A stretch of 64,000 nt of DNA, taken from NCBI RefSeq assembly GCF_002159975.1, contig NZ_NFJR01000001.1, forward strand, positions 372,001 to 436,000. Reading direction: 5' to 3'. Source of the DNA: Barnesiella sp. An22. Lineage in GTDB: Bacteria; Bacteroidota; Bacteroidia; Bacteroidales; Barnesiellaceae. Below the pieces are notes generated by a model. It worked only from the letters and a program-made list of their open reading frames with translations, was not told where the DNA came from and ran no database searches. Below are positions 11,011 to 42,600 of the stretch, one piece after another; the stretch's first letter is position 1, and the number at the start of each line of letters is the position of its first letter. The position numbers and the translations under genes were made by a program.

Positions 11011-11230
11011 GGGATAAAGATAGTGAAAGGCGAGAGGAGAAGCAAACCGAAATGAAATTTCGAGTTTGATCATCCCGAGCCGACTCCTATCTTCGTGTAA
11101 CAAAGATAGTGAAAGGAGAGCGCAGAGACAAAGAGAAAACAAAGTTTTCATTTTTGACTATGCCGAACCGCATCCTGTCTTCTGAAAAGATAGTGAAAGG
11201 AGAGCGCAATAAAGCCAAACTTGTTTGAGT
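11011..11230 (-). repeat. Promoter-bearing repeat family, locus A (three tandem units, minus sense)
   Basis: Three tandem units point toward the sulfatase. Unit A1: TTTG (11043-11046), 20 bp, TATCTTTA (11015-11022). Unit A2: palindrome GAAAAC-N3-GTTTTC (11135-11149), TTTG (11129-11132), 20 bp, TATCTTTG (11101-11108). Unit A3 is degenerate, with TATCTTTT and a different palindrome CAAAC-N2-GTTTG (11216-11227). A1 has its own palindrome CGAAAT-N3-ATTTCG just upstream of its TTTG. Between units lies a conserved GCGGTTCGGCA box. A1 is 32 bp from the sulfatase ATG, so it is the best candidate for the working promoter. Confidence 0.8.
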
Positions 11231-11242
11231 TTTTTGGCAGGA

Positions 11243-11274
11243 TTCGGAACTTTTCCGTAAAAAAATTATCTTTG
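11243..11274 (+). promoter_or_regulatory. Likely promoter of the DUF1232 gene
   Basis: TTCG at 11243-11246, 20 bp, then TATCTTTG at 11267-11274. The start codon is at 11335. Confidence 0.5.
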
Positions 11275-11334
11275 CGACGATAGATTGTGAGACGGAACAC
11301 ACTCTCTATACACAAACACGAAACGAAAAAGAAT

Positions 11335-11769
11335 ATGTTCACGATCATTTGCATCACCATTTTAGCCTATATGATTATGGGCAAAGATATCAAACGGCTT
11401 CTGGCCCGAGTAAAAAATGTCGATTGGCGCGACAAGATAAACCGCATATACATCAAGTTGCAGCCCTATGCCCTCAAGGTAGGCCGTGTGGCGGCTCGCC
11501 CGTTGCTCCAGTTCTACTACGTGATGAAGGACGAGAAGACCTCGGCCCTCGACCGCATTCTCATCTATGCCGCCATCATCTACACCATTTCGCCGGTAAG
11601 CCTCATCCCCAGTGCCGTGTTCAAGTTCATCGGGGTACTCGACGAAGGGGCCGCCGTGCTCTATGTCTACAAAAAGATAAAGGGCAAAATCACCCCCGAA
11701 ATCAACGCCCAGGTCGATGAAACCCTCGACCAATGGTTCGGCACCCGCTACGAAATGGTGAGGGAGTAA
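11335..11769 (+). CDS. DUF1232 (YkvA-like) membrane protein
   Basis: A 144-aa protein. A hydrophobic N-terminal segment is followed by a basic region and then the DUF1232 core ALDRILIYAAIIYTISPVSLIPSAVFKFIGVLDEGAAVLYV (about residues 73-115), the motif shared by YkvA proteins. The function of this family is not known. ATG 11335 was preferred over a start 16 codons upstream because it follows directly after the 5' region and gives the usual length. It is followed by a hairpin terminator. Confidence 0.8.
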   Translation: MFTIICITILAYMIMGKDIKRLLARVKNVDWRDKINRIYIKLQPYALKVGRVAARPLLQFYYVMKDEKTSALDRILIYAAIIYTISPVSLIPSAVFKFIGVLDEGAAVLYVYKKIKGKITPEINAQVDETLDQWFGTRYEMVRE

Positions 11770-11801
11770 TCCGCTTGTAAGATATTATAAAAATATTTCG
11801 A

Positions 11802-11830
11802 GCGAGGATAGTTTTTCTATTCTCGCTTTT
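11802..11830 (+). terminator. Terminator after the DUF1232 gene
   Basis: GCGAGGATAG (11802-11811) pairs with CTATTCTCGC (11817-11826) with one G-T pair, five-T loop, then TTTT. TATCTTTA at 11834-11841, immediately after, may be the -7 element of the maturase gene. Confidence 0.75.
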
Positions 11831-11875
11831 CTGTATCTTTACAGATGATAAGAAAAACGTCACAGAGACTCGATT

Positions 11876-13123
11876 ATGGAAAAGACACTCTATACCCCAT
11901 TCGACCGAATCATGTATATCATGGCCAAGCCGGTGGGATCGATTTGCAACCTGGCTTGTACCTATTGCTACTACACCGAAAAGGCTAAGCTCTACCACGA
12001 TACGCCTCGCCATATCATGAGCGAGAGTTTGCTCGAGAAGTTTATCAAGGAGTATATCGAGAGCCAGGCGAGCGACCATATCCTCTTCACCTGGCATGGC
12101 GGCGAGACGCTGATGCGCCCGCTCGACTTCTACCAAAAGGTGGTGAAGCTGCAGGCTCAGTATGGCCGGGGCCGTGTCATCGAGAACAGCATACAGACCA
12201 ACGGTACACTGCTGACCGACAGCTGGTGCCGCTTCTTCAAAGAGAACAACTGGCTGGTGGGGGTGAGTATCGACGGCCCGCAGGAGTTTCACGACGAATA
12301 CCGCCTTACGAAACAGGGACGGCCTACTTTCGTGAAGGTGATGCAGGGTATCAACCTGCTCAACAAGCACGGGGTGGAGTGGAACGCCCTGGCCGTGGTC
12401 AACGACTTCAACGCCGATTATCCGCTCGACTTCTATCACTTTTTCAAGGATATTCACTGCAAGTATATCCAGTTTACCCCTATCGTCGAGCGCATCAATC
12501 CGCACGCCGACGGTCGCCATCTGGCGGCTCCCGACGAGGAGACGCGCGACGGGGTGACCGACTTCTCGGTCTCGCCCGAACAGTGGGGCGAATTTCTCTG
12601 CACCCTCTTCGACGAATGGGTGCGCAACGACGTGGGCGAGTACTTCGTGCAGCTGTTCGATGCCACCCTGGCCAATTGGGCGGGGGTGATGCCGGGCATC
12701 TGCACCATGGCCGAAACTTGCGGCCATGCCGGCGTGATGGAGTTTAATGGCGACGTGTACAGTTGCGACCACTTCGTCTTCCCCGAATACAAGCTGGGGA
12801 ATATCTACTCCAAGTCGCTCATCGAGATGATGAACAGCCCGCAACAGATTGCCTTCGGGCAGAACAAGCGCGACGGCCTGCCGGCCCAGTGCAAAGCGTG
12901 CGACTACCTGTTTGCCTGCCACGGCGAGTGTCCCAAAAACCGGTTTGCCCGCACCGCTACCGGTGAGCCGGGGCTGAACTACCTGTGTGCCGGGTATCAC
13001 CGCTTTTTCGAGCATGTGGCTCCCTACATGGATTTTATGAAACACGAGCTCGACAACAAGCGGCCGCCAGCCAACGTGATGCAGTGGATTCGCGAAAACG
13101 AGAAGAACGAAAAGCGACGCTAA
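11876..13123 (+). CDS. Anaerobic sulfatase-maturating enzyme (radical SAM, SPASM)
   Basis: A 415-aa radical SAM enzyme that oxidises the active-site Ser or Cys of sulfatases to formylglycine without oxygen. The [4Fe-4S]-SAM motif is C24-NLA-C28-TY-C31. The C-terminal SPASM region shows C-x-M-A-E-T-C-G (about 280-287), then CDHF, and CKACDYLFACHGECPKNRF near 340-358, which provide the two auxiliary clusters. FTWHGGETLMRP is the conserved GGE motif. Bacteroides thetaiotaomicron depends on one such enzyme for all its sulfatases. All three sulfatases in this window are Ser-type and would be its substrates. Confidence 0.93.
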   Translation: MEKTLYTPFDRIMYIMAKPVGSICNLACTYCYYTEKAKLYHDTPRHIMSESLLEKFIKEYIESQASDHILFTWHGGETLMRPLDFYQKVVKLQAQYGRGRVIENSIQTNGTLLTDSWCRFFKENNWLVGVSIDGPQEFHDEYRLTKQGRPTFVKVMQGINLLNKHGVEWNALAVVNDFNADYPLDFYHFFKDIHCKYIQFTPIVERINPHADGRHLAAPDEETRDGVTDFSVSPEQWGEFLCTLFDEWVRNDVGEYFVQLFDATLANWAGVMPGICTMAETCGHAGVMEFNGDVYSCDHFVFPEYKLGNIYSKSLIEMMNSPQQIAFGQNKRDGLPAQCKACDYLFACHGECPKNRFARTATGEPGLNYLCAGYHRFFEHVAPYMDFMKHELDNKRPPANVMQWIRENEKNEKRR

Positions 13124-13139
13124 CGCTCCTGCCATAACG

Positions 13140-13180
13140 ACAAGCCCCGAAGTGCTGAAGACCAGACTCCGGGGCTTGTT
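13140..13180 (+). terminator. Terminator between the maturase and rlmD genes
   Basis: ACAAGCCCCG (13140-13149) pairs with CGGGGCTTGT; a T-rich tail TCTATTTTCTT follows on the plus strand. The convergent rlmD gene may use the same hairpin. Confidence 0.7.
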
Positions 13181-13212
13181 CTATTTTCTTGATTCTGTTT
13201 CGCGATACTCTC

Positions 13213-14628
13213 CTACTCTTCCTTGCGCTCCAGCAACACCACATTCTCTACATGGTGAGTATGGGGGAACATGTCGACCGGCTGCACGCGCGCCACGCGA
13301 TACTTGGCATCGAGCAGCGACAGGTCGCGCGCCTGCGTGGCGGGATTGCAACTGACATAGACGATGCGACGCGGCTCGGCAAAGAGGATGGTCTTGATTA
13401 CATCGTCGTGCATGCCGGCGCGAGGCGGGTCGGTGATGATGACATCGGGGCGACCGTGTTCACCGATAAACTCTTCGGTAAGAATATCTTTCATATCGCC
13501 GGCATAGAACAGCGTGTTGTCGAGGCCGTTGATACGGGCATTCTCCTTGGCATCCTCGATAGCCTCGGGCACATACTCGATGCCGATGACCTTGCGCGAC
13601 TGCCGGGCCACGAAGTTGGCAATGGTACCCGTGCCGGTGTAGAGGTCGTAGACCAGTTCGTCGCCGGTGAGGCCGGCAAACTCGCGGGCCACCTTGTAGA
13701 GTTCGTAGGCCTGCTCCGAGTTGGTCTGGTAGAACGACTTGGGGCCAATCTTGAAGCGCAGCCCCTCCATGCTCTCCCAGATGTAGTCGCGCCCGCGATA
13801 GAGGTGCACCTCCTGGTCGGTGATGGTATCGTTGGGTTTCTGGTTGACTATATAGAGGAGCGAGGTAATCTGGGGGAACTCGTCGGCCACGTGCTGCATC
13901 ATCGCCTCTATACGCTCCCGGTCGGGCTCGAAGAAAACGACGATAAGCATGATTTCGCCCGTCGAGGCGGTGCGCACGATGATATTGCGCATGAGTCCCG
14001 TCTGCTCGCGCAGGTCGAAGAAGGGGTAATTGTGGTCGATGGCAAACTGCCGTATCGAGAGGCGTATGAGGTTGGAGATGTCGTCCTGGAGCCAGCACTT
14101 CTTGATGTCGAGCACCTTGTCGAACATGCCCGGTATGTGGAACCCCAACGCATTGCGGCTGTCGAACTCCTGAGCCGACTGCAACTGCTCGTAGGTGAGC
14201 CACGACCGATTCGAGAACGAGAACTCGAGCTTGTTGCGGTAGAACTGCTGCTTGGCCGACCCCTTCGTGGGCAACACCTCGGGCAAGGGAATCTTGCCGA
14301 TGCGGGTGAGGTTGTCCTCGACCTGCTGCCGTTTGAACTGCAACTGGAAGTCGTAGGTCACATGCTGCCACTTGCAGCCGCCGCACACCCCGAAGTGTTC
14401 GCAAAAAGGCTGCACCCGCAGCGGCGAATAGCTGTGAAATTTCACGATACGCGCCTCGGCGTAGCTGTGCTTCTTGCGCGTCACCTGTAAATCGACTACA
14501 TCGCCCGGAGCGGCAAAGGGTACAAACACCACCAGGTCGTTCACTCGTGCCAAAGCCTTTCCTTCGGCAGCCACACCGGTTATCTCAATCTGCTCCAGCA
14601 AGGGGAGCTCTTTCTTCTTTCGTGCCAA
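13213..14628 (-). CDS. rlmD: 23S rRNA (uracil-5-)-methyltransferase, RlmD/RumA type
   Basis: A class I SAM-dependent m5U methyltransferase of about 471 aa. An N-terminal TRAM-like domain (GVAAEGKALARVNDLVVFVPFAAPGD) precedes the Fe-S cysteines in FCEHFGVCGGCKWQH. The SAM fold shows DLYTGTGTIANFVA, and VITDPPRAGMHDDV plus YVSCNPATQARDL hold the catalytic Cys. I place the start at TTG 14628, giving the family N-terminus ARKKKELP. The longer frame from 14688 would begin inside the -33 box of the promoter repeat and translate the promoter. Whether the target is U1939 or another uridine cannot be read here. Confidence 0.88.
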   Translation of the reverse strand: MARKKKELPLLEQIEITGVAAEGKALARVNDLVVFVPFAAPGDVVDLQVTRKKHSYAEARIVKFHSYSPLRVQPFCEHFGVCGGCKWQHVTYDFQLQFKRQQVEDNLTRIGKIPLPEVLPTKGSAKQQFYRNKLEFSFSNRSWLTYEQLQSAQEFDSRNALGFHIPGMFDKVLDIKKCWLQDDISNLIRLSIRQFAIDHNYPFFDLREQTGLMRNIIVRTASTGEIMLIVVFFEPDRERIEAMMQHVADEFPQITSLLYIVNQKPNDTITDQEVHLYRGRDYIWESMEGLRFKIGPKSFYQTNSEQAYELYKVAREFAGLTGDELVYDLYTGTGTIANFVARQSRKVIGIEYVPEAIEDAKENARINGLDNTLFYAGDMKDILTEEFIGEHGRPDVIITDPPRAGMHDDVIKTILFAEPRRIVYVSCNPATQARDLSLLDAKYRVARVQPVDMFPHTHHVENVVLLERKEE

Positions 14629-14656
14629 AACAAATAAGTATAAGAATAATAATGGT

Positions 14657-15115
14657 GCAAAGATAGTGAAAGGTAAGAGTAGAGGCAAAGGAAAACGCAG
14701 TTTTCAACTTTGACTCTGCCGAACCGCCATCTATCTTCTGAAAAGATAGTGAAAGTCGAAGGTAGAAAAGCAAGCTTGCTTGATTTTTATACTGAGACGC
14801 ATCCTATCTTCGTGTAGCAAAGATAATGAAAGGTGAGAGTAGAGGCAAAAGAAAACGCAGTTTTCAATTTTGACTCTGCCGAACCGCATCCTGTCTTATC
14901 CAAAGATAGTGAAAGGTGAGCGACAAGCAAAGAGGCTTGCATTATTTGCTTGGCCGAACCGCATCCTGTCTTCTGAAAAGATAGCGAAAGGTGAGAGTAG
15001 AGGCAAAAGAAAACGCAGTTTTCAATTTTGACTCTGCCGAACCGCATCCTGTCTTCTGAAAAGATAGCGAAAGGTGAGCGCAGAGGCAAAGGAAAACGCA
15101 CCCTTTTCAGCTGAC
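14657..15115 (-). repeat. Promoter-bearing repeat family, locus B (six tandem units, minus sense)
   Basis: Six units begin (at the -7 end) near 14658, 14741, 14818, 14901, 14976 and 15059, giving periods of 83, 77, 83, 75 and 83 bp. Units 1, 3, 5 and 6 are type 1, with palindrome GAAAAC-N3-GTTTTC (decayed in unit 6). Units 2 and 4 are type 2, with AAGCAAGCTTGCTT at 14768-14781 and CAAGC-N6-GCTTG at 14924-14939. TTTG and the -7 box are exactly 20 bp apart in units 1, 3, 5 and 6, and 19 bp in unit 4. The -7 boxes are TATCTTTG in units 1, 3 and 4 and TATCTTTT in 2, 5 and 6. The unit nearest rlmD is intact. No gene is present in this 500-bp interval. Confidence 0.85.
14658..14705 (-). promoter_or_regulatory. 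rlmD proximal promoter (unit B1)
   Basis: On the minus strand: palindrome GAAAAC-TGC-GTTTTC (14691-14705), TTTG (14686-14689), 20 bp, TATCTTTG (14658-14665). The expected transcript start is about 20 nt before the TTG start codon at 14628. Confidence 0.7.
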
Positions 15116-15127
15116 CATGCACGGGGG

Positions 15128-16024
15128 TTACTCGCGCAGACGGAACTCGTTGGGGGTGCAACCCACCACCCGCTTGAACATGCGGCTCATGTGCTGGGGA
15201 TACTGGAACCCCAGGCTGTATGCAATCTCGCTCATCGACTTCGAGGTTGAGAGCAGCAGCTCCTTGGCACGGGCAATCAGTTTCTTCTGGATGTGTTCCG
15301 ATACGGTCATTCCCGTCTGTTTCCGAATCATATCGCCGAAGTAGTTGGGCGACAGATATACCTGTTCGGCAAAATACTTCACGGTAGGCAGCCCTATCTC
15401 CTGCGGAGCCTTGCTGTCGAAATACTCGTCGAGCAAGCGCTCGAAACGCACGATAATATCTTTGTTGGGGAGTTCGCGGGTAGTAAACTGCCGCTCATAG
15501 AAACGCATGCAGTAATCGAGCAACAGCCCTATGTTGGCCGTAATGAGCCGACGGCTGTGTTTGTCGATATTGTGCCGCAACTCGGCATCGATCTTCTGCA
15601 GGCAATCCATGATGGTATCGCGCTCGCTCTCGGAGAGGTGCAGCGCCTCGCGCGTCTCGTACGAGAAGAACGAATACTTCTTAATCTCCTGCCCCAGCAT
15701 GGTGCCCCGAATGAAATCGGGATGGAAGAGCAACCCGTGAGCCTTGGGACGAGCATCCTTCGCCATATCTACCTCGGCCACCTGACCGGGAGCAAAGCAG
15801 ACAATTGTACCCTCGCCATAATCGTAGGGCTGACGGCCGTAGGTAATATCGCCACATTTCGTCTCTTTCAAGAACAGCGCATATACGCCATAACTGATTT
15901 TAAGGTGTTCGGGCCATTGAGTAGCTTGCGACAAGTCGATTACCGCCACCATCGGGTGCAAGGTTTCCAAGCCAAAAATCTTGTTATACTGATCTACACT
16001 ATCCAATTTGATCCACTCTTCCAT
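15128..16024 (-). CDS. AraC family transcriptional regulator (AraC-1)
   Basis: A 298-aa regulator with an N-terminal sensor region and a C-terminal double helix-turn-helix: YFAEQVYLSPNYFGDMIRKQTGMTVSEHI is the first HTH and SMSEIAYSLGFQYPQHMSRMFKRVVGCTPNEFR the second. I chose ATG 16024; an upstream in-frame start at 16111 would overlap the operator. It is divergent from the CMD-cupin/alcohol dehydrogenase genes, with two copies of a direct-repeat operator between. It is a paralogue of the regulator at 19606 (shared segments around LHLSxxER and LLLDYxxRFYxRQF). Likely activator of its divergent neighbours. Confidence 0.92.
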   Translation of the reverse strand: MEEWIKLDSVDQYNKIFGLETLHPMVAVIDLSQATQWPEHLKISYGVYALFLKETKCGDITYGRQPYDYGEGTIVCFAPGQVAEVDMAKDARPKAHGLLFHPDFIRGTMLGQEIKKYSFFSYETREALHLSESERDTIMDCLQKIDAELRHNIDKHSRRLITANIGLLLDYCMRFYERQFTTRELPNKDIIVRFERLLDEYFDSKAPQEIGLPTVKYFAEQVYLSPNYFGDMIRKQTGMTVSEHIQKKLIARAKELLLSTSKSMSEIAYSLGFQYPQHMSRMFKRVVGCTPNEFRLRE

Positions 16025-16047
16025 AACACAAAATTTAATCGTTACGG

Positions 16048-16055
16048 CAAATATA
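16048..16055 (-). promoter_or_regulatory. -7 element of AraC-1
   Basis: Minus-strand TATATTTG at 16048-16055 is a full TAnnTTTG match, 24 bp before the ATG. No clear -33 box is present, and operator module 1 begins 38 bp upstream of it. Confidence 0.5.
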
Positions 16056-16092
16056 CTATTATAATTCGATATATCCTCGACTCGGCCGTCGT

Positions 16093-16131
16093 ATCCATGA
16101 TTCGGGTACAACTATCCGTAATCGGTATACA
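16093..16131. promoter_or_regulatory. AraC-type direct-repeat operator, module 1
   Basis: Two 18-bp half-sites start 21 bp apart at 16093 and 16114. Both follow the pattern ATCC-TgATCGG-GTACA (second: ATCCGTAATCGGTATACA). Head-to-tail half-sites two helical turns apart are typical AraC family targets. Probably used for autoregulation of AraC-1. Confidence 0.7.
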
Positions 16132-16209
16132 AGATTTTGTCCGAGAAGCTCCTAACTCTCTTTCTATTACAAATATAGCATCTCACGTCAAGTAAAGCCA
16201 ACCGCCAAA

Positions 16210-16248
16210 ATCCACGGTTCGGGTAGAAACATCCGTAAATCGTATACA
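16210..16248 (+). promoter_or_regulatory. AraC-type direct-repeat operator, module 2, adjoining promoter
   Basis: Half-sites at 16210-16227 and 16231-16248 (second: ATCCGTAAATCGTATACA), again 21 bp apart. The -7 element TAATTTTG follows at 16270-16277, with 21 bp between operator end and -7, so the proximal half-site occupies the -33 position. This is the layout of an activator-dependent promoter for the CMD-cupin gene. Confidence 0.72.
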
Positions 16249-16315
16249 GAAATTCAGGTACACCCCTGCTAATTTTGTACCGGAAAAAAATCGAAACCAT
16301 AAAAACAGATAAGGT

Positions 16316-17146: not shown

Positions 17147-17159
17147 ACCTAACCCTACA

Positions 17160-18341: not shown

Positions 18342-18366
18342 CGACCCATCGTTTCTTTTGAATACA

Positions 18367-18420: not shown

Positions 18421-18441
18421 ACCGGAAGAAGACGTCACGGC

Positions 18442-18505
18442 CAAGTCAAAGTTGAAAACTGCGTTTTCCTTTGCCTCTGCGCTCACCTTTCGCTACTTTT
18501 GTAAC
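18442..18505 (+). repeat. Promoter-bearing repeat family, locus C (single unit, plus sense)
   Basis: One unit: palindrome GAAAAC-TGC-GTTTTC (18454-18468), TTTG (18470-18473), exactly 20 bp, TACTTTTG (18494-18501). The AraC-2 start codon follows at 18524. Upstream part TCAAAGTT matches the type 1 units of loci B and E. Confidence 0.8.
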
Positions 18506-18523
18506 CGAATAAACGAATCGGCT

Positions 18524-19435
18524 ATGAATCACAACGAGAAATTCGGCATATATACCGACCAAACGGAGAAACAGATCTCTTTGCTGAAATACTCCAAGAG
18601 TTCGTGTGGCGTGGACTTCCTGCTCAACACGGCCGAGAGTAGCGAGAAACGGGGCTGGTTCGATGCCGACAAACGATACAAGACCGATTTCTTCGAGTTC
18701 TATTTCTTCCGGCAGGCCGAGGGCTACCTGTTCCTGACGGGCGAAAAGATAGAACTGCACCCCGGCATGGTGCTGATTATCTCGCCTTTTCAGTGGCAAG
18801 AGTGGCATGTCGACCTCGACAAGCTGGACTATACCTTCCTGATATTTCAAGAGGAGTTTATCAACAACTTCCTCTCCGACAAATACTTCATGTACCGCTT
18901 GCTGTACTGCTACCAGCACGACTACCCTACCCACTTCGACCTGGAGGTGACGGCCATGGCTCCCTACCTCGACCTGCTCTCGAAGATGAAGCACGAGCTG
19001 CACGAACCCGTTGCCGACAGCTACCACATGATCGTGGCCTACCTCTATCAGTTTCTGTTGCTCCTCAACCGGCTGTATGCCGGGTTATTCGGCCTGCCGT
19101 TCGATGCACCGCTCAACAACTATGCCTACCAGTACAAAGAGCTGCTCGAAAAACACATCGCCGAGATGACTCACGTGAGCGACTACGCCGATGCGATGAA
19201 CATCAGCCGCATATCGCTCAACAAGGCGGTCAAACGCGAGTTCGGGCTGTCGGCCGTCCACCTGCTGAAACAGCGTCTGCTGCAAGAGGTGAAGAACGAA
19301 TTGCTCTTCTCGGGCCGCTCGGTGAAAGAGATTGCCTTCAGGCTGCACTTCTCGGAACCGAACCACCTGATGCGATTTTTCAAACAGATGACCGGGCAGA
19401 CCATTGGCGAGTTCTTGGCCTCACGATTATCATAA
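18524..19435 (+). CDS. AraC family transcriptional regulator (AraC-2)
   Basis: A 303-aa protein with an N-terminal cupin-like sensor (GYLFLTGEKIELHPGMVLIISPFQWQEWHVD) and a C-terminal double HTH (YADAMNISRISLNKAVKREFGLSAVHLLKQRLL and SVKEIAFRLHFSEPNHLMRFFKQMTGQTIGEF). The start is ATG 18524; the frame continues upstream through the promoter repeat, which explains a misleading longer reading frame from 18452. It is not closely similar to the other two AraC proteins nearby. Targets unknown. Confidence 0.9.
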   Translation: MNHNEKFGIYTDQTEKQISLLKYSKSSCGVDFLLNTAESSEKRGWFDADKRYKTDFFEFYFFRQAEGYLFLTGEKIELHPGMVLIISPFQWQEWHVDLDKLDYTFLIFQEEFINNFLSDKYFMYRLLYCYQHDYPTHFDLEVTAMAPYLDLLSKMKHELHEPVADSYHMIVAYLYQFLLLLNRLYAGLFGLPFDAPLNNYAYQYKELLEKHIAEMTHVSDYADAMNISRISLNKAVKREFGLSAVHLLKQRLLQEVKNELLFSGRSVKEIAFRLHFSEPNHLMRFFKQMTGQTIGEFLASRLS

Positions 19436-29675: not shown

Positions 29676-29707
29676 ATTGTGAAATTAGGACAAAGGATAT
29701 AACTTTG
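29676..29707 (+). promoter_or_regulatory. Promoter of the riboswitch leader
   Basis: ATTG at 29676-29679, exactly 20 bp, TAACTTTG at 29700-29707. The transcript would start just before riboswitch helix P1. Confidence 0.65.
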
Positions 29708-29715
29708 TCCCCCGT

Positions 29716-29893
29716 AATCGGTTTGCCCCGTCCGAATCGGCCGAGGCAATGAAAAGGGAATCGGGTGCAAATCCCGAACAGGCCCGCTGCTGTGAGTTTC
29801 GTATGAGTTTTCAGACAAATACTGCAATGCCACTAATCCAGACTCGATTGGGAAGGCGTCTGAGAGGGAGACAAGTCAGAAGACCTGCCGATT
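29716..29893 (+). ncRNA. Cobalamin (vitamin B12) riboswitch
   Basis: The closing helix P1 is AATCGG (29716-29721) with CCGATT (29888-29893). Inside are GGGAATCGGGTGCAAATCCC, the GCCCGCTGCTGTGAG region, the B12-box core GCCACT (29829-29834), GGGAAGGCG and AGTCAGAAGACCTGCC (29874-29889). These match the cobalamin riboswitch consensus. A GC hairpin at about 29911-29936 could form the kissing-loop arm. The regulated gene starts at 30048. Binding of adenosylcobalamin or methylcobalamin would be expected to shut off that gene. Confidence 0.93.
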
Positions 29894-30047
29894 GCGTAGA
29901 AACAACTGTTGCCGGCTCCGTGGACCGAGCCGCCGGTCGAAAGAAAATTTTTCGGAAAAAAGAGATTTTTTGCTTGAGCAATAGGAGTAGGCGTCGCGTG
30001 GGCGACTCTATTCCGCCATTCAGTATTTAACTAAAAAAGAAAAGATT

Positions 30048-31221: not shown

Positions 31222-31248
31222 CCAATCTCTATCTTGAAAGAAGAGAAT

Positions 31249-31325
31249 GGGCGGCCCGGCTCTGCCAAATGTCGAAAACTTCGTTTTCCATTTGCCACTG
31301 CTCTCGCCTTTTGTTATCTTTGCAC
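31249..31325 (+). repeat. Promoter-bearing repeat family, locus D (single unit, plus sense)
   Basis: CGGCTCTGCCAAATGTC box, palindrome GAAAAC-TTC-GTTTTC (31274-31288), TTTG (31291-31294), exactly 20 bp, TATCTTTG (31315-31322). The ThrE gene starts at 31355. Confidence 0.8.
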
Positions 31326-31354: not shown

Positions 31355-32122
31355 GTGAACAACGTACACGAAGAACTGAAATCGGTATCGCAATTTCTTA
31401 CGGAATATGCGACTTGTTTGATGGCATCGGGCGTACATACCTCGCGTATCGTGCGCAACACGGCCCGTATAGCCGAGTCGTTTGGGTTCGAAGCCCACAT
31501 GACCCTCTTTCACAAAACCATCAGCATGACCTTGCGAAGCAAGGACAACGCCCACGTATACAGCACGGTGAGTACCGCAAAATCGGGGGCTATCAATTTT
31601 GAGTTCAACTCCGAGTTGAGTGCTCTCAGTTGGGAAGCCTACGACAACCATCTCCCGCTCGACACGCTGTGGGAGAAGTTCCACGCCATCACAAGCAAAC
31701 CTCGCATGAACCCGTGGGCGGTGTGGATTCTGGTGGGCTTTGCCAATGCCTCGTTCTGCCGGCTCTTCAACGGCGACTGGATAGCGGTAGCCGCCGTATT
31801 TGTGGCTACGCTCGTGGGATTCCGCATCAAACAAATATTGCACTTCAACCACTATTTCGTATTCACCATATCGGCATTTGTCGCATCGCTCATCGCCTCG
31901 ATTACCATGTGGCAGCACTGGGGTACCACCCCCGACATCGCTATCGGTGCCAGCGTGCTCTACCTCATACCGGGCGTGCCCTTGATTAACGGGATTATCG
32001 ACATTATCGAAGGTCATGTGCTGGCCGGTACCGCCCGCCTCATCAACGCCCTGCTGCTGATTGTCTGCATTGCCTTCGGTATGGGTATTACACTTTTAAT
32101 GATGGGAGGGAAACTGTTATGA
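31355..32122 (+). CDS. Threonine/serine exporter, ThrE N-terminal half (DUF1212)
   Basis: A 255-aa membrane protein with a soluble N-terminal region containing CLMASGVHTSRIVRNTARIAESFGFEA, the DUF1212 signature, followed by five or so membrane helices from about residue 120. Together with the next gene it corresponds to a ThrE exporter split into two chains. The start is GTG at 31355; there is no nearby ATG. The next gene overlaps by 4 bp (ATGA type). Confidence 0.9.
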   Translation: MNNVHEELKSVSQFLTEYATCLMASGVHTSRIVRNTARIAESFGFEAHMTLFHKTISMTLRSKDNAHVYSTVSTAKSGAINFEFNSELSALSWEAYDNHLPLDTLWEKFHAITSKPRMNPWAVWILVGFANASFCRLFNGDWIAVAAVFVATLVGFRIKQILHFNHYFVFTISAFVASLIASITMWQHWGTTPDIAIGASVLYLIPGVPLINGIIDIIEGHVLAGTARLINALLLIVCIAFGMGITLLMMGGKLL

Positions 32123-32809: not shown

Positions 32810-34375
32810 ATGAAAAAGAATTTTTCCCTGAAAAGCACCCTGCTGCTGGCTTCGCTTGCCGGCACCGGTCTCATACAAGCACAACAACAGCCCAACATCG
32901 TTCTGTTTCTGGTCGACGATATGGGCTGGCAAGATACATCGGTTCCGTTTTACTCCGAGTCAACTCCCCTGAACAACCGCTACCGTACCCCCAACATGGA
33001 GCGGTTGGCCCACATGGGGGTGAAGTTTACCGAGGCTTACGCCTGTGCCATCTCGTCGCCCACGCGGTGCAGCCTGATGTCGGGCATGAATGCGGCCCGT
33101 CACCGGGTGACCAACTGGACCCTGAACTACGACCAGAAGACCGACGCCTCGAGCGACGTGATTCAACTGCCCGAGTGGAACTACAACGGCATACAACCGG
33201 CACACACGACCCTGACCGCCGACCTGAAAAACTCGACCCGTATCACCTCGTTCCCCCAGATTCTGCACCAGAACGGCTACTACACGATACACTGCGGCAA
33301 GGCGCACTTCGGCGCCAAGGGTACATCGGGGGCCGACCCCTCGACCATGGGTTTCGACGTGAACATCGGCGGCGGGGCCAACGGGGCACCGGGCAGCTAT
33401 CTGGGCACGCGTAACTTCGGCCAAGGCTCGCCCTTCGAAGTGTTGGGCCTGGAGAAATACCACGGGCAGAATATATTCCTCACCGAAGCACTCACACGCG
33501 AAGCCATCGAGGCCCTGAAACAGCCGATAAGCCGGCAGCAACCTTTCTACCTCTACATGTCGCACTATGCCGTGCACTCGCCCTACGACGACGATGCCCG
33601 ATTCAGCGACTACTACCGCAACCGCTACGATATCCAACTCGATGCGCCGCTCAACGAAAACGAAGCCCGGTATGCCGCACTGGTCGAGGGCATGGACAAG
33701 AGCCTGGGCGACCTGCTCGACTTTCTCGAAAGCCAGCCCGAGGTGGCTGCCAATACCATCGTCCTCTTCATGTCGGACAACGGTGGACAGGGGCTGAACA
33801 ACGTACGCCAGGGCCGTGAAAACCGCGACCAGAACTACCCGGCACGTGCCGGCAAGGGGTCGGCCTTCATGGGTGGCGTGCGCGAGCCGATGATGGTCTA
33901 CTGGCCCGGCGTGACCAAGGCCGGCAGCGTGTGCGACCAACGGGTAATGATCGAGGACTTCTTCCCCACGATTCTCGAGATGGCCGGTGTGAAGGAGTAC
34001 TCGACCGTACAGACGACCGACGGCGTGAGCTTTGCCGACGTGTTGCGCAACCCTTCGACCCGTCACGAGCGCAGCATCGTGTGGCACTTCCCCAACCTGT
34101 GGGGCGAAACCCAGAATACCGAGGAGGGCTACGGAGCCTACTCGTCGATTCTGAAAGGCGACTATCACCTCATCTACCATTGGGAAACGCAGCAACGCCG
34201 CCTCTACAACGTGCGTGCAGATATAGGCGAGCAGCACGACCTGGCTCTCGAGCAACCCGCGATTGCCGAAGCTCTGGCCCGGGAACTGACCGACTACCTG
34301 AAATCGACCGACGCCCAACGCCCGACCTACATCGCTACGGGCGAAGCCTGCCCCTACCCCGACGGCTCGAAATAA
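32810..34375 (+). CDS. Ser-type sulfatase, secreted
   Basis: A 521-aa sulfatase with a signal peptide ending near LIQAQ (residue 25). PNIVLFLVDDMGWQDT carries the metal-binding Asp pair. The maturation motif is S82-S-P-T-R86, Ser type. GKAHFGAKGT and FMSDNGGQG contain further active-site residues. It ends with TGEACPYPDGSK. I chose ATG 32810 because it directly precedes the signal peptide; the frame extends further upstream without one. The last 37 bp of coding sequence are repeated at 36874 behind the next gene. Confidence 0.92.
   Translation: MKKNFSLKSTLLLASLAGTGLIQAQQQPNIVLFLVDDMGWQDTSVPFYSESTPLNNRYRTPNMERLAHMGVKFTEAYACAISSPTRCSLMSGMNAARHRVTNWTLNYDQKTDASSDVIQLPEWNYNGIQPAHTTLTADLKNSTRITSFPQILHQNGYYTIHCGKAHFGAKGTSGADPSTMGFDVNIGGGANGAPGSYLGTRNFGQGSPFEVLGLEKYHGQNIFLTEALTREAIEALKQPISRQQPFYLYMSHYAVHSPYDDDARFSDYYRNRYDIQLDAPLNENEARYAALVEGMDKSLGDLLDFLESQPEVAANTIVLFMSDNGGQGLNNVRQGRENRDQNYPARAGKGSAFMGGVREPMMVYWPGVTKAGSVCDQRVMIEDFFPTILEMAGVKEYSTVQTTDGVSFADVLRNPSTRHERSIVWHFPNLWGETQNTEEGYGAYSSILKGDYHLIYHWETQQRRLYNVRADIGEQHDLALEQPAIAEALARELTDYLKSTDAQRPTYIATGEACPYPDGSK
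34336..34372 (+). repeat. Direct repeat, left copy (sulfatase 3' end)
   Basis: A 37-bp sequence encoding the last residues of the sulfatase (TGEACPYPDGSK). The copy at 36874-36910 matches at 35 of 37 positions. The two copies flank the outer-membrane receptor gene. Confidence 0.8.
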
Positions 34376-34418
34376 ATCACTTGGTGACATGTGATTACAT
34401 ACGATACAATAGGACATT

Positions 34419-36695: not shown

Positions 36696-37068
36696 CGGTA
36701 TCTATGACAGTCTGGCCCAATATCCGGTATCTGTGTAATTCCATGAATTTGTGGAGCCCGCAATTCCATCACACCGTCGGGTTCGACATTGACCCCACTA
36801 CCCGTCAATCGCGAAAACGGGGTTACCTTTTCGATGCGGGTAAGAACACAATCGACAAACGACTCGCTGCTAATACGGGCGAGGCCTGCCCCTACCCCGA
36901 CGTCTCGAAACAAGGCAACGACTCCTCGCGGTTCTTTTTCCATACAGTTCCCAATCATGCAAGTGGGGCAACCATCTGCATTGAGGAAATATTGCACACT
37001 TTTTCAGACTATTCGATAACGAATAATGGAACAAAAATAACGACTTTCGCACCCAAGAAAAGCATCGT
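36696..37068 (+). other. Intergenic region with relic of a sulfatase 3' end
   Basis: This 370-bp gap has no convincing gene. Positions 36874-36910 repeat the sulfatase 3' coding end; translated in frame it reads TGEACPYPDVSK followed by QGNDSS, without the stop codon. Upstream of that no sulfatase similarity is visible to me. The last 60 bp are AT-rich and probably hold the ftsH promoter. Confidence 0.6.
36874..36910 (+). repeat. Direct repeat, right copy (sulfatase tail relic)
   Basis: Second copy of the 37-bp sequence at 34336-34372, two mismatches. It lies 179 bp after the receptor gene stop. Confidence 0.8.
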
Positions 37069-38925
37069 ATGAAAAAAGAACAAAATCAACCCCCCAAACG
37101 GGTCAATCCCTACACCGGTTTTTTAGGGAGTATTTTAATCCTCTTACTGCTGAACGGATTGATTATGCCCAGTCTGTCGGGAAACCGAATTGTCACAACC
37201 GACTACGGCACTTTTGTCGAAAAAGTAGACAGCGGTCTGGTAAAAGAGGTCGCTATCAAGAGCAATCAAATCTACTTCATAACTCAAGAAAAAGACAAAG
37301 AGATAACCTACCAAACCGGCGAAGCCAACGACCCCCAACTGGTAGACCGACTGCTGCATGCCAGCAGTCCCAACGACAACGGCAAAATAGAATTTACCCA
37401 AATCGTTCCTCGCGAAAACTCACCCCTGCTCGATTTCCTGTTGATGTGGATTCTGCCGGGTCTGCTCTTCTATATTCTCTGGAGACAAATCGGAAAGAGT
37501 CTCCAGAACCGGATGAAATCGGGCGGTAACTTCATGTCATTCGGTAATAGCGGTGCCAAAATCTATGCCGAGTCGGACATCAAGACCACCTTTGCCGATG
37601 TGGCCGGACAGGAGGAGGCCAAAGAGATGTTGGCCGAAATCGTAGACTTTCTGCACAACCCCGGGAAATATGCCGAGATTGGAGCCACCCTGCCCAAGGG
37701 AGCCCTGCTGGTAGGCCCTCCGGGAACCGGCAAAACCCTTATCGCCCGAGCCGTAGCCGGCGAGGCCAAGGTGCCCTTCTTCGCCATATCGGGTTCGGAG
37801 TTTGTACAGATGTTCGTCGGTATGGGTGCAGCCAAGGTGCGCGACCTCTTCAAACAGGCCGGTGAGAAAGCCCCCTGCATCATCTTCATCGACGAAATCG
37901 ATGCCATAGGCAAACGCCGCGACACCGGACTGGGCGGCAACGACGAACGGGAACAGACCCTGAACCAGCTGCTCACCGAGATGGATGGCTTCGACGGCCG
38001 CAAAGGTGTGGTGATACTGGCCGCCACCAACCGCCCCGACAGCTTGGACAAAGCGTTGCTGCGACCGGGCCGGTTCGACCGCCGGGTACAGATGGAACTC
38101 CCCGATCTGGAGGGACGGAAAGCCATTCTCGAGGTTCATTTGAAAAAAGTACGCCACGGCAATATCGACGTCGACCTGGTGGCCCGTGCCACCGCCGGCT
38201 CGTCGGGTGCCGAACTGGCCAACATCGTAAACGAGGCCGCCCTGCGGGCCGTACGCATGGGACGCAAGCAAATTACCACGGCCGACCTGGAAGAGAGTGT
38301 CGAAACCGTCATTGCCGGTGCTCAAAAGAAAAACAAAATCCTGTCGGACGACGAGAAGAAGATTGTCGCCTATCACGAAATAGGGCACGCTCTGGTGGCC
38401 GCCTTGCAGACCCACTCGGCCCCGATACACAAAATCACCATTATCCCCCGTACCTCGGGTGCTTTGGGCTACACCATGCAGGTCGACCGCGGGGAGCAGT
38501 CGCTCTTGAGCCGCGAAGACCTCTTCAACCGCATCGTCACCCTCACGGGCGGACGCTCGGCCGAGGAGGTGATGTTCGGTATCGTCACTACCGGAGCCTC
38601 GAACGACATCGAACAGGCCACCAAACTGGCCCGTGCCATGGTGACCCGCTACGGCATGAGCGACCGCTACGACATGATGGAACTCGAAACGACCAGCAAC
38701 GCTTATCTGGGCGGAGACAACTCGCTCATCTGTTCGCCCAGCACGGCCGCCGACCTAGACAAAGAGGTATTGCACCTCATCACCTCAGCTCACGAGAAAG
38801 CCAAGGAGATGATCAAGAGCCACACCGAAATCATGCACCGGGCCGCAGCCTACCTGACCGAACGGGAGACCATCACCGGCGACGAGTTCATGAAGATTGT
38901 CGAAGAGTGCACCGCCAAAGATTAA
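37069..38925 (+). CDS. ftsH: ATP-dependent zinc metalloprotease FtsH (divergent)
   Basis: A 618-aa membrane AAA+ protease. Hydrophobic segments lie at about 17-35 and 119-138, with a periplasmic domain between. Walker A is GPPGTGKT (216-223), Walker B IIFIDEID (271-278), the second region of homology [19 protein letters not shown], and the zinc motif HEIGH (436-440). It degrades membrane and short-lived cytoplasmic proteins. Deviations from the common form are HEIGH for HEAGH and [15 protein letters not shown] for SGADLANLVNEAAL, and a shorter C-terminus. It may be a second FtsH of the genome. A terminator follows. Confidence 0.93.
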
Positions 38926-38959
38926 AAGACAGACTGTTATTGCGTTTCATATTCGACCG

Positions 38960-39004
38960 GGCGAAACCGTATGGAGATTTTTCTCCGAATCGGTTTCGCC
39001 TTTT
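38960..39004 (+). terminator. ftsH terminator
   Basis: GGCGAAACCG (38960-38969) pairs with CGGTTTCGCC (38991-39000), then TTTTC. Confidence 0.8.
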
Positions 39005-39006
39005 CT

Positions 39007-39843
39007 TTATTCCTCCTTCATACGACGGTAGCGCAACGGAGAGACGCCGATATGAGTCCTGAAAAACCGGACAAAGGAAGAAGCATTAGGGAAATGCAAC
39101 TTTTCAGAAATCTGCTGTACCGTCAAATCGGTAGCCCGTAACGCCCGCTTGGCTTCGAAAAGCACAGCCTCGTTAATCCACGTCTGTACCGAATAGTGGG
39201 TAATCGACTTTACAGCCCCCGACAGGTATTTGGGGGTTACGCACAATTCACCGGCATAGAACGCAACGGTACGTTCACGCTCGAAGTGTTGCAGCAGCAA
39301 ATCGAAAAAACGCCTCGTGATAGACTCGGCCCGCGAGCATGACAGATTGTCGACCCTCGCCGAATTTTCAAATGTCGATGCCACAATCAACAGCAACGAC
39401 AGGACCAACGAAGTTCTAATCTTTTCCGACATCCCTGCTCCATCGTTATACCGCTCGATCATTGCATAGAGCTCGACCAGGTCTTTTACCTTCTCGTCGC
39501 TCAGCGATACGTAGGGCCACGAATTTATATTCTTCAGCCAATCGAAATCGGGGGTCACAGGGATATGACGGACAAAATCGAGCGAAATAAACAGGACCTT
39601 CGCCTCGAAATCGGGCGAATAATGCAACACCGAGAATATCTGCTTCGGCGTAACGACCAACAGATCTTTGGTCGAAACCTCATACTCACTGTAATTGAGC
39701 CGTATCTTCATCGACCCGCTGGTGCAAAGGTTAAATATGAAACCCTCGGAGATAAACGACTGTCCCTGAAAATCGCGTCCAAGCACCTCGGTCAACTCCT
39801 TAAATGCAAATTCGCCCTCGTGATTCAATATTCTTTCGTCCAT
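39007..39843 (-). CDS. AraC family transcriptional regulator (AraC-4)
   Basis: A 278-aa protein. The N-terminal half (residues 1-150) looks like a cupin sensor with GFIFNLCTSGSMKIRLNYSEYEVSTKDLLVV. The C-terminal double HTH is FYAGELCVTPKYLSGAVKSITHYSVQTWI and TVQQISEKLHFPNASSFVRFFRTHIGVSPLRYR. It is divergent from an HdeD-like gene 132 bp away, which it may regulate. Note the shadow of low GC spacing between the two genes; no direct-repeat operator like modules 1-3 is visible. Confidence 0.9.
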   Translation of the reverse strand: MDERILNHEGEFAFKELTEVLGRDFQGQSFISEGFIFNLCTSGSMKIRLNYSEYEVSTKDLLVVTPKQIFSVLHYSPDFEAKVLFISLDFVRHIPVTPDFDWLKNINSWPYVSLSDEKVKDLVELYAMIERYNDGAGMSEKIRTSLVLSLLLIVASTFENSARVDNLSCSRAESITRRFFDLLLQHFERERTVAFYAGELCVTPKYLSGAVKSITHYSVQTWINEAVLFEAKRALRATDLTVQQISEKLHFPNASSFVRFFRTHIGVSPLRYRRMKEE

Positions 39844-39975
39844 ACCGACCGCCCAGTTTCTAAATTTCTACGACAAAAATAAGAAATAATGCACATTTTT
39901 AGAACTACAATGATAATAAGAATGCAACCTATCCCGTCTATCTTTATCGCCGTTAATTCTAAAAAACAAAGTCCT

Positions 39976-40551
39976 ATGTTAAATGAAATGCGTTTACATC
40001 AAAAGCCCTTCAAATACTGGTGGATATCCCTGCTGGCAGGTATACTGAGTATTGTCGGTGGTATCCTTTGTTTTTCCACCCCTATCGATTCGCTGGCCGT
40101 ACTCACCCTCTTTTTCGTTGCCATCCTTATTGTCGGGGGTATCTTCAATATTGCATCGGCCTTTACAAACCGTAAGTGGAACGACTATTGGGGTTGGGAC
40201 CTGGCCCGCGGTATCATAGAACTCTTACTGGGAGTATGGCTCTACATGCTGCCTCTGGTACTTGTGACAACCACTATCGTCTACGTATTCGGATTCTGGA
40301 TGCTGTTCCACTCGATTATCGGCATCTGCGAGTCGTGCGAACTTGCCCGCCTGCCTATAAAAGGTTGGGGGTGGCTGCTGGCCTGCAACATACTGAGCCT
40401 GATCTGCTCGTTCCTCTTCCTCACCACACCTATCTTTGGCGGACTGTTTATTCTCGTCTACATCGGGGTATCGTTCATTCTGTATGGAATATTCCGTATC
40501 GTATTGGCATTTAAGATGCACAGCTTCAACCGCGCCCTGCAAGAAGAATAG
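39976..40551 (+). CDS. HdeD/DUF308 family membrane protein
   Basis: A 191-aa protein with six hydrophobic helices arranged as repeated pairs, e.g. WWISLLAGILSIVGGILCFSTPIDSLAVLTLFFVAILIVGGIFNIASAF, the pattern of HdeD-like DUF308 proteins (acid-resistance membrane proteins in enterobacteria). The start is ATG 39976; ATG 39988 is also possible, and a longer frame from 39889 has no support. A terminator follows. Confidence 0.87.
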   Translation: MLNEMRLHQKPFKYWWISLLAGILSIVGGILCFSTPIDSLAVLTLFFVAILIVGGIFNIASAFTNRKWNDYWGWDLARGIIELLLGVWLYMLPLVLVTTTIVYVFGFWMLFHSIIGICESCELARLPIKGWGWLLACNILSLICSFLFLTTPIFGGLFILVYIGVSFILYGIFRIVLAFKMHSFNRALQEE

Positions 40552-40601
40552 GCTCTCTATCATCCTTTGAATATGCCGTTATGCAACAACGGCTCTCTAC
40601 G

Positions 40602-40647
40602 AAAGAGGTTATGACGATACGAAAATCATCGTCATAGCCTCTTTTTG
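40602..40647 (+). terminator. Terminator after the HdeD-like gene
   Basis: AAAGAGGTTATGACGAT (from 40602) pairs with ATCGTCATAGCCTCTTT (to about 40645) with a G-T pair, followed by TTG. Confidence 0.8.
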
Positions 40648-40736
40648 TACAAAAAAGATAGCCGACATTCGTCGATGCAATGAGAAAATTGTACTATCTT
40701 TAGTACCTGTTTTACTCACGCCTCATAAAATTGTAT

Positions 40737-42314
40737 ATGAAACGTCTGCTTTTCGTTCCTCTTGTGCTGGGCCCGGCCAGCTTTTCTGTCACTGCCCAGG
40801 AGACAACCGCCCCCAATATCGTATTGATCATGTGCGACGATATGGGATTTTCCGATTTAGGTTGTTACGGGAGCGAAATACAAACACCGCACATAGACAG
40901 CCTCGCCAGCCAAGGCATGCATTTCAGCCAATTTAAGAACACGGGGCGAAGCTGCCCCTCTCGGGCCTCGCTTCTGACGGGCCGCTATCAACATCAGGCC
41001 GGCATGGGATGGATGACAGCCGTCGACGAACATCGTCCCGGATACAGAGGTCAGATCTCGAAAGAGTATCCTACCATAGCCGAGGTGATGAAAGCCAACG
41101 GCTACGGCACATACATGAGCGGCAAATGGCATGTGACGGTCGACGGAGCCTTCGATGCCCCCAACGGCAGCTATCCCGTGCAACGCGGATTCGACCGCTA
41201 TTACGGTTGCCTCTCGGGAGGAGGCAGTTACTACTCTCCCACGCCGGTATATAACGACTTGACTCCAGTTACCGACTTCCCCGACGACTATTACTATACC
41301 ACAGCCATATCAGACTCGGCTACCAGCTTTATCCGCCAGCATCCAGCCCAGATTCCCATGTTTCTGTATGTTGCCTACTATGCACCGCACCTCCCCTTGC
41401 AAGCTCCGGCCGACCGGGTAGAGAAGTGTATGGAGCGCTACCGGGCAGGCTACGATGTTTTGCGCCGGCAGCGATTCGAGAAACAAAAGGCCATGGGGCT
41501 CGTTCCCTCGGATATGGAGTTGCCGGAATACGACCGAGAGTTCGGCGGTAAACGCCCCTCCTGGGAGGAGCTGAGCGAGGATCAACGCCGACAATGGGTA
41601 CAGGATATGGCCACCTATGCAGCCATGATTGAAATCATGGACGACGGTATAGGCCAAATTGTCGAAGCGTTCCGTGAAAAAGGGACCCTGGAAAATACCA
41701 TATTCCTGTTCCTTAGCGACAACGGTGCGACCCTGGAGGGCGGCTATCTGGGACAGCTGATGGCCGATCTCTCCAACACGCCTTACCGCAGTTACAAGCA
41801 ATGGTGCTATCAGGGAGGGACAAGTACCCCCTTTATTTTCACGTTTGGCGATACCGACAAGAACCCCGTAAAGGGTGGCATCTGTCGACAACCGGCTCAC
41901 ATCATCGACCTTCTGCCTACCTGTATGGATTTGGCCTCGGCCATCTATCCCAGCCGACAATTCGACCATGCCCAACTGCCGGGTATCAGCCTGCTGCCGG
42001 CTATCGAGGGAAAAGAGATACAACCGCGCACCCTGTTTTTCGAACATCAAAGTTCGTGTGCCGTCATATCGGGACATTGGAAACTGGTACGAAACAACCG
42101 GAACGAACCTTGGGAGTTGATTGATCTCGATGCCGATCCGTTCGAACAACACGACCTCTCCACCCGTTTCCCCGAAAAGGTAAAGTCGCTGGAAAACGAA
42201 TGGAATCGTTGGGCCGAAGCACACCTGGTCCTCCCCCTGGAGGATAAACCGTGGCACGAACGCATCGACTTCTACAAAAATCTAAATGACGACCAAAGCG
42301 GTCGCGAAGAGTAG
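40737..42314 (+). CDS. Ser-type sulfatase, secreted (S-C-P-S-R motif)
   Basis: A 525-aa sulfatase with a signal peptide ending SVTAQ (residue 21). NIVLIMCDDMGFSDLGCYG holds the metal-binding Asp pair. The maturation motif is S72-C-P-S-R76: the residue in the formylglycine position is Ser, with Cys in the variable place next to Pro. SGKWHVTVDG and FLSDNGATLEGG provide more active-site residues. It resembles arylsulfatases of about this length (AtsA-like). ATG 40737 is preferred over TTG 40731. Three promoter repeats lie just downstream, pointing to nfo. Confidence 0.92.
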   Translation: MKRLLFVPLVLGPASFSVTAQETTAPNIVLIMCDDMGFSDLGCYGSEIQTPHIDSLASQGMHFSQFKNTGRSCPSRASLLTGRYQHQAGMGWMTAVDEHRPGYRGQISKEYPTIAEVMKANGYGTYMSGKWHVTVDGAFDAPNGSYPVQRGFDRYYGCLSGGGSYYSPTPVYNDLTPVTDFPDDYYYTTAISDSATSFIRQHPAQIPMFLYVAYYAPHLPLQAPADRVEKCMERYRAGYDVLRRQRFEKQKAMGLVPSDMELPEYDREFGGKRPSWEELSEDQRRQWVQDMATYAAMIEIMDDGIGQIVEAFREKGTLENTIFLFLSDNGATLEGGYLGQLMADLSNTPYRSYKQWCYQGGTSTPFIFTFGDTDKNPVKGGICRQPAHIIDLLPTCMDLASAIYPSRQFDHAQLPGISLLPAIEGKEIQPRTLFFEHQSSCAVISGHWKLVRNNRNEPWELIDLDADPFEQHDLSTRFPEKVKSLENEWNRWAEAHLVLPLEDKPWHERIDFYKNLNDDQSGREE

Positions 42315-42363
42315 ACTCCAGTTGGCTGCTCCGAATGGTCTCCTTCTTTTTCGGGGAGAGGCG

Positions 42364-42600
42364 GCTCGGCACTGTCAAAGTTGAAAACTGTATTTTCCTT
42401 TGCCTCTGCCCTCGCCTTTCACTATATTTCCAGAATACAGGAGGCGGCTCGGCACTGTCAAAGTTGAAAACTGTGTTTTCCTTTGCCTCTGCTCTCGCCT
42501 TTCACTATATTTCCAGAATACAGGAGGCGGCTCGGCACTGTCAAAGTTGAAAACTGTGTTTTCCTTTGTCTCTGCTCTCGCCTTTCACTATATTTGTACA
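42364..42600 (+). repeat. Promoter-bearing repeat family, locus E (three tandem units, plus sense)
   Basis: Three type 1 units at an exact 83-bp period. TTTG boxes: 42399-42402, 42482-42485, 42565-42568. -7 boxes: 42423-42430, 42506-42513 (both TATATTTC) and 42589-42596 (TATATTTG). The spacer is 20 bp in all three. Palindromes are GAAAAC-TGT-(A/G)TTTTC. Only the unit closest to nfo has the consensus final G; the two distal ones share the same change to C. Confidence 0.85.
42565..42596 (+). promoter_or_regulatory. nfo promoter (unit E3)
   Basis: TTTG, 20 bp, TATATTTG (perfect TAnnTTTG), 30 bp before the nfo start codon at 42627. Confidence 0.75.

Follow-up and report, generated by a model that had tools for sequence, protein, structure and literature searches.

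How does one short, promoter-like sequence come to stand in front of several dissimilar genes? The question is raised by a 64,000-nt stretch of DNA from Barnesiella sp. An22 (NCBI RefSeq assembly GCF_002159975.1, contig NZ_NFJR01000001.1, positions 372,001 to 436,000; hereafter the window), in which 14 repeat units occur at five places, all facing a gene. An earlier reading of the same letters (the original prediction) took them for a promoter that had spread through the genome. As a reading of promoters only this appears incomplete, and the unit would behave as a mobile insertion that targets the -7 box: it is probably a non-coding mobile element, akin to a miniature inverted-repeat transposable element (MITE), which inserts at the -7 box TAnnTTT and rebuilds the promoter that it interrupts.

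In this scheme, a promoter already in place would receive a unit immediately 3' of its -7 box, always in the same orientation, and the 7-mer would then be found on both sides of the unit. The TTTG at the right end of the unit would be so placed as to make the right-hand 7-mer the -7 box of a new promoter, so that the gene would lose its old -33 box, gain another and could remain transcribed. Further units would enter the same box and give tandem arrays of mixed sequence, and insertions elsewhere would either be lost by selection or never occur. Promoter activity, the mechanism of mobility and the enzyme are what we infer here.

Repeat units in the window and beyond

The units of the window, their target genes and the parts of the last unit of array E (E3) are as follows.

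Array A, 11015 to 11257, minus strand: units 11015-11093, 11101-11181 and 11185-11257 (degenerate)
Target of array A: sulfatase gene 9469-10983
Array B, 14658 to 15100, minus strand: five full units of mixed palindrome types, starting at 14658, 14741, 14818, 14901 and 14976
Extra unit of array B, 15059-15092, minus strand: right half only
Target of array B: RlmD-type gene 13213-14601
Unit C, 18425 to 18501, plus strand: left end decayed; 22 nt 5' of the AraC-type gene 18524-19435
Unit D, 31241 to 31322, plus strand: upstream of thrE 31355-32122; left flank still CTATCTTgaaag
Array E, 42356 to 42596, plus strand: three near-identical 83-bp units upstream of nfo 42627-43475
E3, 42517 to 42523, plus strand: left arm AATACAG, pairing imperfectly with the flanking CTATATT boxes
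E3, 42565 to 42568, plus strand: -33-type TTTG in the right arm of the palindrome, its putative role assigned from PMC7366714
E3, 42589 to 42596, plus strand: -7-type TATATTTG, which includes the right-hand flanking 7-mer and follows the TTTG at a spacing of 20 bp

A covariance model (R1), made from a sequence alignment of 61 units to which a stated structure was assigned, recovered 13 units in the window, namely three in A, five in B, one each in C and D and three in E, the degenerate A unit only at E 0.0086. With the sixth, half-length B unit the total reaches 14, in agreement with the number and the five places first described. The targets had been named as sulfatase, rlmD, araC-type, thrE and nfo genes, and their Pfam domains (Sulfatase; tRNA_U5-meth_tr, of TrmA/RlmD type; HTH_18, AraC; ThrE; AP_endonuc_2, nfo) bear this out.

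As in MITEs, the unit is short and non-coding and occurs in many dispersed copies. E3 has 64 blast matches in its own genome (3.35 Mb, 56 contigs), and the pattern of the right end, with up to three mismatches, was matched 166 times versus 23 for the same pattern reversed. At E <= 0.1 the genome contains at least 131 R1 matches, including two second-strand doubles; the count is a lower bound, as 150 of 1529 candidates were scored. With antisense duplicates dropped, 131 units of about 65-90 nt fall into 74 arrays, which supports a promoter-like unit spread through the genome as opposed to an ordinary regulon. The predicted bias of copies to lie upstream of genes in the same direction was likewise confirmed by this profile count: 71 of the 74 arrays face a co-directional gene by our own gene caller, and a seventy-second, L064, does so by eye, the caller having chosen a false gene there. 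The exceptions are L076 (minus strand), which is reversed and has a decayed -7 box, and L062 (plus strand), which lies close to the end of a contig where the caller found no gene. The approximate distance from array to gene start, which may be off with the starts given by the caller, has a median of 62 nt and is within 150 nt in 64 of 71 arrays; none lies inside a called gene. Among arrays scoring at least 45 in tandem gene contexts, 28 face the downstream gene and one is reversed (p 1e-7). One three-unit array, L059 (G000:C12:75240-75478), lies directly 5' of a gene with tyrosine-recombinase matches (G000:C12:74309-75100).

All nine genomes searched within the genus carry the unit, with 25-64 blast matches each. 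In a sample of the order, R1 matches (E <= 0.001, with stricter filters) were found in 14 of 149 genomes, which represent 11 of the 132 genera sampled; six of these carriers (G000, G004, G029, G036, G076 and G096) have at least 31 matches, and the other eight have 1-9. Forty of the 64 R1 matches from 20 stretches were inspected (G096, G076, G029, G142 and most of G036), and in these units the left box resembles GCGG(C/T)TCGGCA and the right end resembles CTC(R)CCTTTCAC-TAnnTTTG, from which some G036 units diverge more. At L111-L114 of G036 the unit takes a shorter form of 64-65 nt, in which the linker is often 11 nt long; several of the internal units there read CACTTCTTTG and proximal units CACTATCTTTG, as if the -7 box were retained only next to the gene. 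Searches of phage and plasmid sequences returned eight unannotated scaffold records labelled phage, one viral contig and one unannotated record labelled Phocaeicola massiliensis plasmid, all of which may be misfiled bacterial DNA; four of the nine phage-labelled and plasmid records were inspected. The plasmid record holds a single unit (L286; OY726013.1 16435-16515) with CTATCTTTG on both flanks.

The insertion point and the predicted rebuilt promoter

The point of insertion can be read in two arrays of clustered regularly interspaced short palindromic repeats (CRISPR). In genome G008, CRISPR repeats of 47 bp with 29-30-bp spacers lie beside Cas2, Cas1 and a Cas9-like protein (RuvC_III, HNH), and in one repeat an 83-bp unit, which starts CAAGAAGATAGG and ends CACTATCTTT, interrupts the sequence exactly after TATCTTT, whereupon the repeat resumes with GACTTATT; 15 unbroken identical repeats lie beside it in the locus examined. 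In G000 the unit that splits a CRISPR repeat at this same point is 74 bp long and has a palindrome of a different type. Insertion into a CRISPR repeat suggests that the box alone, without a gene start, may be enough as a target. The G008 array (L230, L283; about 573.2-578.2 kb) is II-C-like with more than 50 repeats, the repeat itself contains TATCTTTG, a promoter-like -7 box, and a second broken repeat end precedes the split repeat.

Comparison of related species points the same way. In G008 and G001, 19 unit loci each, among the matches listed, together with 20 ortholog places, gave 27 pairs, which were picked for units on at least one side and some of which align on one flank only, so that the rates apply to this set and not genome-wide. 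At R1 E <= 0.001, eight pairs have equal numbers of units and 19 different numbers, including eight in which units are present on one side and absent from the other; in three of these eight the absent side (L269, L270 and L271) lacks a right-end-like stretch. L236 and L269 form a filled/empty pair at a native TATCTTT: L236 carries two units, L269 is free both of units and of any right-end remnant and reads TTTTTCGTATCTTTA, and the left flank of L236, TTTTCGATCTTTG, is this box with one base changed. At L229/L264 an older unit is common to both species, and L229 has a different second unit at the -7 box of the first. The exact insertion point is thus seen in the CRISPR repeats, at L229 and, with one changed base, at L236. 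A further pair, L224/L265, was dropped as an empty site, L265 keeping a right-end-like stretch. The upstream regions of nfo (eight genomes), rlmD (nine) and thrE (nine) contain 0 to 5 full units by eye, and TAnnTTTG is present in 12 of the 14 unit-free regions, being absent in thrE of G005 and G006 (thrE of G001 and G008, with decayed remains, was left out of the count; a wider scan for nfo, which gave 80 loci, did not enter this comparison). Two arrays that are not linked contain one and the same unit (80/80 identical), and for 44 of the 78 units that belong to multi-unit arrays the closest match lies in a different array. Sites both filled and empty, with a repeated target, as expected of a MITE, were found, the clean empty ones being few.

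The same box recurs at the left edge of units in general. Among the outermost units (59 of 115 classed as good), a perfect left TANNTTT is present in 33 and a box with one mismatch in 20, where shuffling gave a mean of 7.3 perfect boxes and a maximum of 17 in 500. Among all good units whose left 7-mer is perfect, 62 have a linker of 4 nt between it and the left arm and 18 a linker of 8 nt. In 26 of the 33 the 7-mers of the two sides are the same, an agreement that none of 20,000 permutations reached (mean 16.0); most identical pairs are TATCTTT on both sides, and the informative, non-TC ones comprise five TA/TA and two TT/TT versus three unlike. Position by position, left and right agree in 30-33 of the 33 within the 7-mer, in 13-19 at the three preceding bases and in 21 and 10 at the two that follow. 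Bases -6 to -4 (TTT) also agree in 28-29 of 33, and native promoters near gene starts are T-rich there too. The 7-mer on both sides represents either a target duplication or a recombination overlap. A G follows the right box in 60 of 63 proximal units versus 26 of 52 internal ones, and base 8 on the left is therefore probably derived from the element.

The Bacteroides-type promoter is described as TTTG at -33 and TAnnTTTG at -7 (PMC7366714). Because this is the published form, the right end of the unit together with the second, right-hand TAnnTTTG is predicted to form a complete new promoter. The TTTG lies 19-20 bp before the right box in 75 of the 115 good units; it had been put at exactly 20 bp in 11 units of the window and at 19 bp in B4, and 20 bp is indeed the genome-wide mode (66 of 115) but not a rule (19 bp in 9, 21-23 bp in 10, no TTTG at 17-23 bp in 30).

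Architecture and pairing of the unit

The unit is an imperfect hairpin of about 70-86 bp. Its left part consists of the linker, AAGATAGGA and GCGG(C/T)TCGGCA, its centre is a palindrome, and its right part reads TCTGCTCTC(R)CCTTTCAC followed by TAnnTTT(G). The palindrome itself includes the -33-type TTTG and, sorted by eye, belongs to at least five unrelated sequence types, whose two arms are:

TCAAA..GAAAAC/GTTTTC..TTTG
AAATATCGAAAC/GTTTCGATATTT
AAAAAACTCAAAC/GTTTGGCTTTTTT
CAAGCAAA/TTTGCTTG
AAAAATCAAGC/GCTTATTTTTT

The ends of the unit also pair, AAGATAG with CTATCTT, and do so only when the flanking 7-mer is included. Of seven units folded, six form one long imperfect hairpin and L021 does so partly (as DNA in the centre only), the z-scores ranging from -0.81 to -4.40 for DNA and from -1.71 to -4.75 for RNA. 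In an alignment of 59 distinct units made by sequence only, 89.8% of cells pair versus 82.8% after shuffling, and changes on both sides occur in 17 of 30 pairs versus 10.7. Doubly changed cells number 112 versus 31.9 in the shuffles, which ignore the kinship of units and do not yield a probability, and sliding the partner by 1-3 columns leaves 3-35. The clearest covarying pairs change GGC/GCC to GGT/ACC (28 CG, 21 UA), and the end boxes covary as AAGATAG/CTATCTT, AATATAG/CTATATT and AAAATAG/CTATTTT; the end-box pair of columns 6/81 fails in 28 of the 59 units. As to the strand that folds, G-T and A-C mismatches are both present. What is conserved is the ability to pair, rather than a site. Because the whole unit pairs so strongly with itself, its substrate form may be a folded single strand acted on by a recombinase.

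Several observations weigh against insertion at the -7 box or limit how far it reaches. Since the left flanks of some outermost units are what is left of older units, the sites in the 7-mer test are not independent native sites, and the two CRISPR cases, in each of which the split repeat has two base differences from the main repeat in its left part, may go back to one old event or shared ancestry. The left arm equals the left box exactly in 37 of 77 units with agreeing boxes, and in the eight units with differing boxes it fits the left box in two and neither in six. Five of the eight absent sides (L265, L273, L276, L279 and L280) retain a right-end-like stretch, which indicates that decay and loss contribute, and the left edge of L224 is decayed. 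The units lacking a TTTG at 17-23 bp belong here too. Local copying between neighbouring units also occurs and could mimic part of the covariation, and by eye there are no ordinary terminal inverted repeats once the flanking 7-mers are set aside.

Competing explanations and related elements

A bolder formulation is that of a new class of mobile DNA in which a folded single-stranded hairpin uses the -7 box as attachment site through identity with its own terminal box and regenerates the promoter; we advance it only tentatively and hold it to be rather doubtful. A known counterpart of the unit is the attC site of integrons, in which structure is kept over sequence, end boxes are paired, the tip is variable and arrays share a box at each junction. 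The unit resembles attC in all these respects, its structure being conserved around a variable palindromic tip with unpaired spacers and a box common to each array junction. In an integron-like process, the folded single-stranded unit would be an attC-like site whose paired terminal box AAnATAG/CTATnTT recombines with matching -7 boxes through a tyrosine recombinase, be it host Xer or another. The tendency of the box to agree with its target and the gene-proximal growth at L229/L264 fit such a process, and matches to the integrase model below the cut-off occur in 15 of 15 carriers, where they were taken as other tyrosine recombinases. Yet tyrosine recombinases are found nearly everywhere and their presence proves nothing, the box sequence is a different one (the GTTRRRY of attC is not seen in the unit), and there are no cassette genes. 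An integron integrase above the TIGR02249 cut-off was found in 0 of 15 carriers, which disfavours this enzyme as the mover and leaves the integron-like explanation unlikely.

The tandem arrangement raises the alternative of a promoter whose copies arise and multiply solely through homologous recombination, unequal crossing-over and gene conversion, with no insertion chemistry involved. Near-identical tandem units (98% in array E; identical pairs in L024 and L067) and local homogenisation among neighbours speak for such events. As the sole process they are contradicted by the unit inside a CRISPR repeat, by the foreign unit at the -7 box of an older one at L229/L264 and by the 44 of 78 array units whose closest match is elsewhere. 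Pure tandem duplication is rejected on the same three grounds, and recombination alone is an improbable account.

It is more improbable still that the unit is a cis-acting RNA element, or a regulatory palindrome bound by a protein beside sigma, selected at many genes. The strong covariation and the low folding energy of most of the seven units would suit an RNA, but the hairpin of single units ends at -7, upstream of the expected transcription start, the number of units differs between related species, and Rfam gave no match to the units tested (the window at the gathering threshold and three unit loci at E 0.5). The original prediction had placed a protein on the inverted repeat next to sigma factor. 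This part of it is not supported, the palindrome containing the TTTG, the unit ends pairing and the centre having at least five unrelated sequences with compensatory changes; since the centre varies yet stays palindromic, a regulator site of fixed sequence is unlikely and was rejected. The one Rfam match of the window lies elsewhere, a cobalamin riboswitch (RF00174, 110 bits) at 29702-29906 on the plus strand. The window also contains a near-identical (93%) 40-nt stretch at 34336-34375 and 36874-36913 and an AT-rich tandem repeat (43 bp, 2.1 copies) at 6934-7023.

Repetitive extragenic palindromes (REP/REPIN-like) moved by an IS200/IS605-type Y1 transposase (RAYT) are scarcely credible, for although the unit is palindromic, dispersed, inserted 3' of a short motif and likely a single-strand hairpin, and PF01797 is found in five of 14 unit-bearing genomes (G016, G027, G038, G129 and G149), these five have 1-5 unit matches, PF01797 occurs in 97 of 149 genomes overall and had no match in the other nine carriers, including all six with at least 31 units, which disfavours this enzyme as the mover; a target repeated on both flanks would also not be expected of a Y1 element. 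Reverse transcriptase is disfavoured as well, PF00078 being unmatched in 8 of 15 carriers, including G036, G076 and G096.

Insertion of a MITE-like element at the -7 box has partial precedents. The Correia/NEMIS elements of Neisseria are small, non-coding, dispersed MITEs with promoters, hairpins and filled and empty sites (PMC10969869, PMC2229807), and the unit is like them in these features and in its position near genes, its promoter being a predicted one. In contrast to their TA termini and clear terminal inverted repeats, it has a -7 box as target, a fixed orientation and no ordinary inverted ends, and here the target sequence would complete the promoter. BrickBuilt, a MITE of Porphyromonas gingivalis alongside which a Putative Mobile Promoter is mentioned (PMC4596501), is likewise an intergenic element of Bacteroidota with tandem units, sites empty in some strains and promoter activity (predicted for the present unit), but is built of a 23-nt minisatellite between IS5-like ends, with target duplications of varying length and bidirectional promoters (PMC4596501). 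The division of the promoter into an upstream box from the element and a downstream box from the target recalls the fusion or hybrid promoters of insertion sequences (IS), formed by an outward -35 box and a host -10 box (PMC9330008); these are an occasional outcome of insertion, whereas in the unit the arrangement would result from the choice of target and is present in the majority of copies. A search of titles and beginnings of abstracts, with subscription journals mostly outside its reach, returned no paper describing the unit.

Mycobacterial interspersed repetitive units (MIRU) occur both dispersed and in tandem, in one orientation relative to genes, with the overlap of gene stop and start as target. 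The unit shares their orientation and a precise functional target, and differs in that this target is the -7 box.

If insertion at the -7 box is correct, the unit, as a mobile element, would do its host little harm, since the choice of target and the right end together would restore the broken promoter, and this would explain its high intergenic copy number. Many genes would receive a common, exchangeable promoter, the turnover of promoters between related bacteria would become directly visible, and a defined recombination activity would be indicated in the order. Should the unit moreover represent a new class of mobile DNA, promoters would serve as its landing sites throughout the genome.

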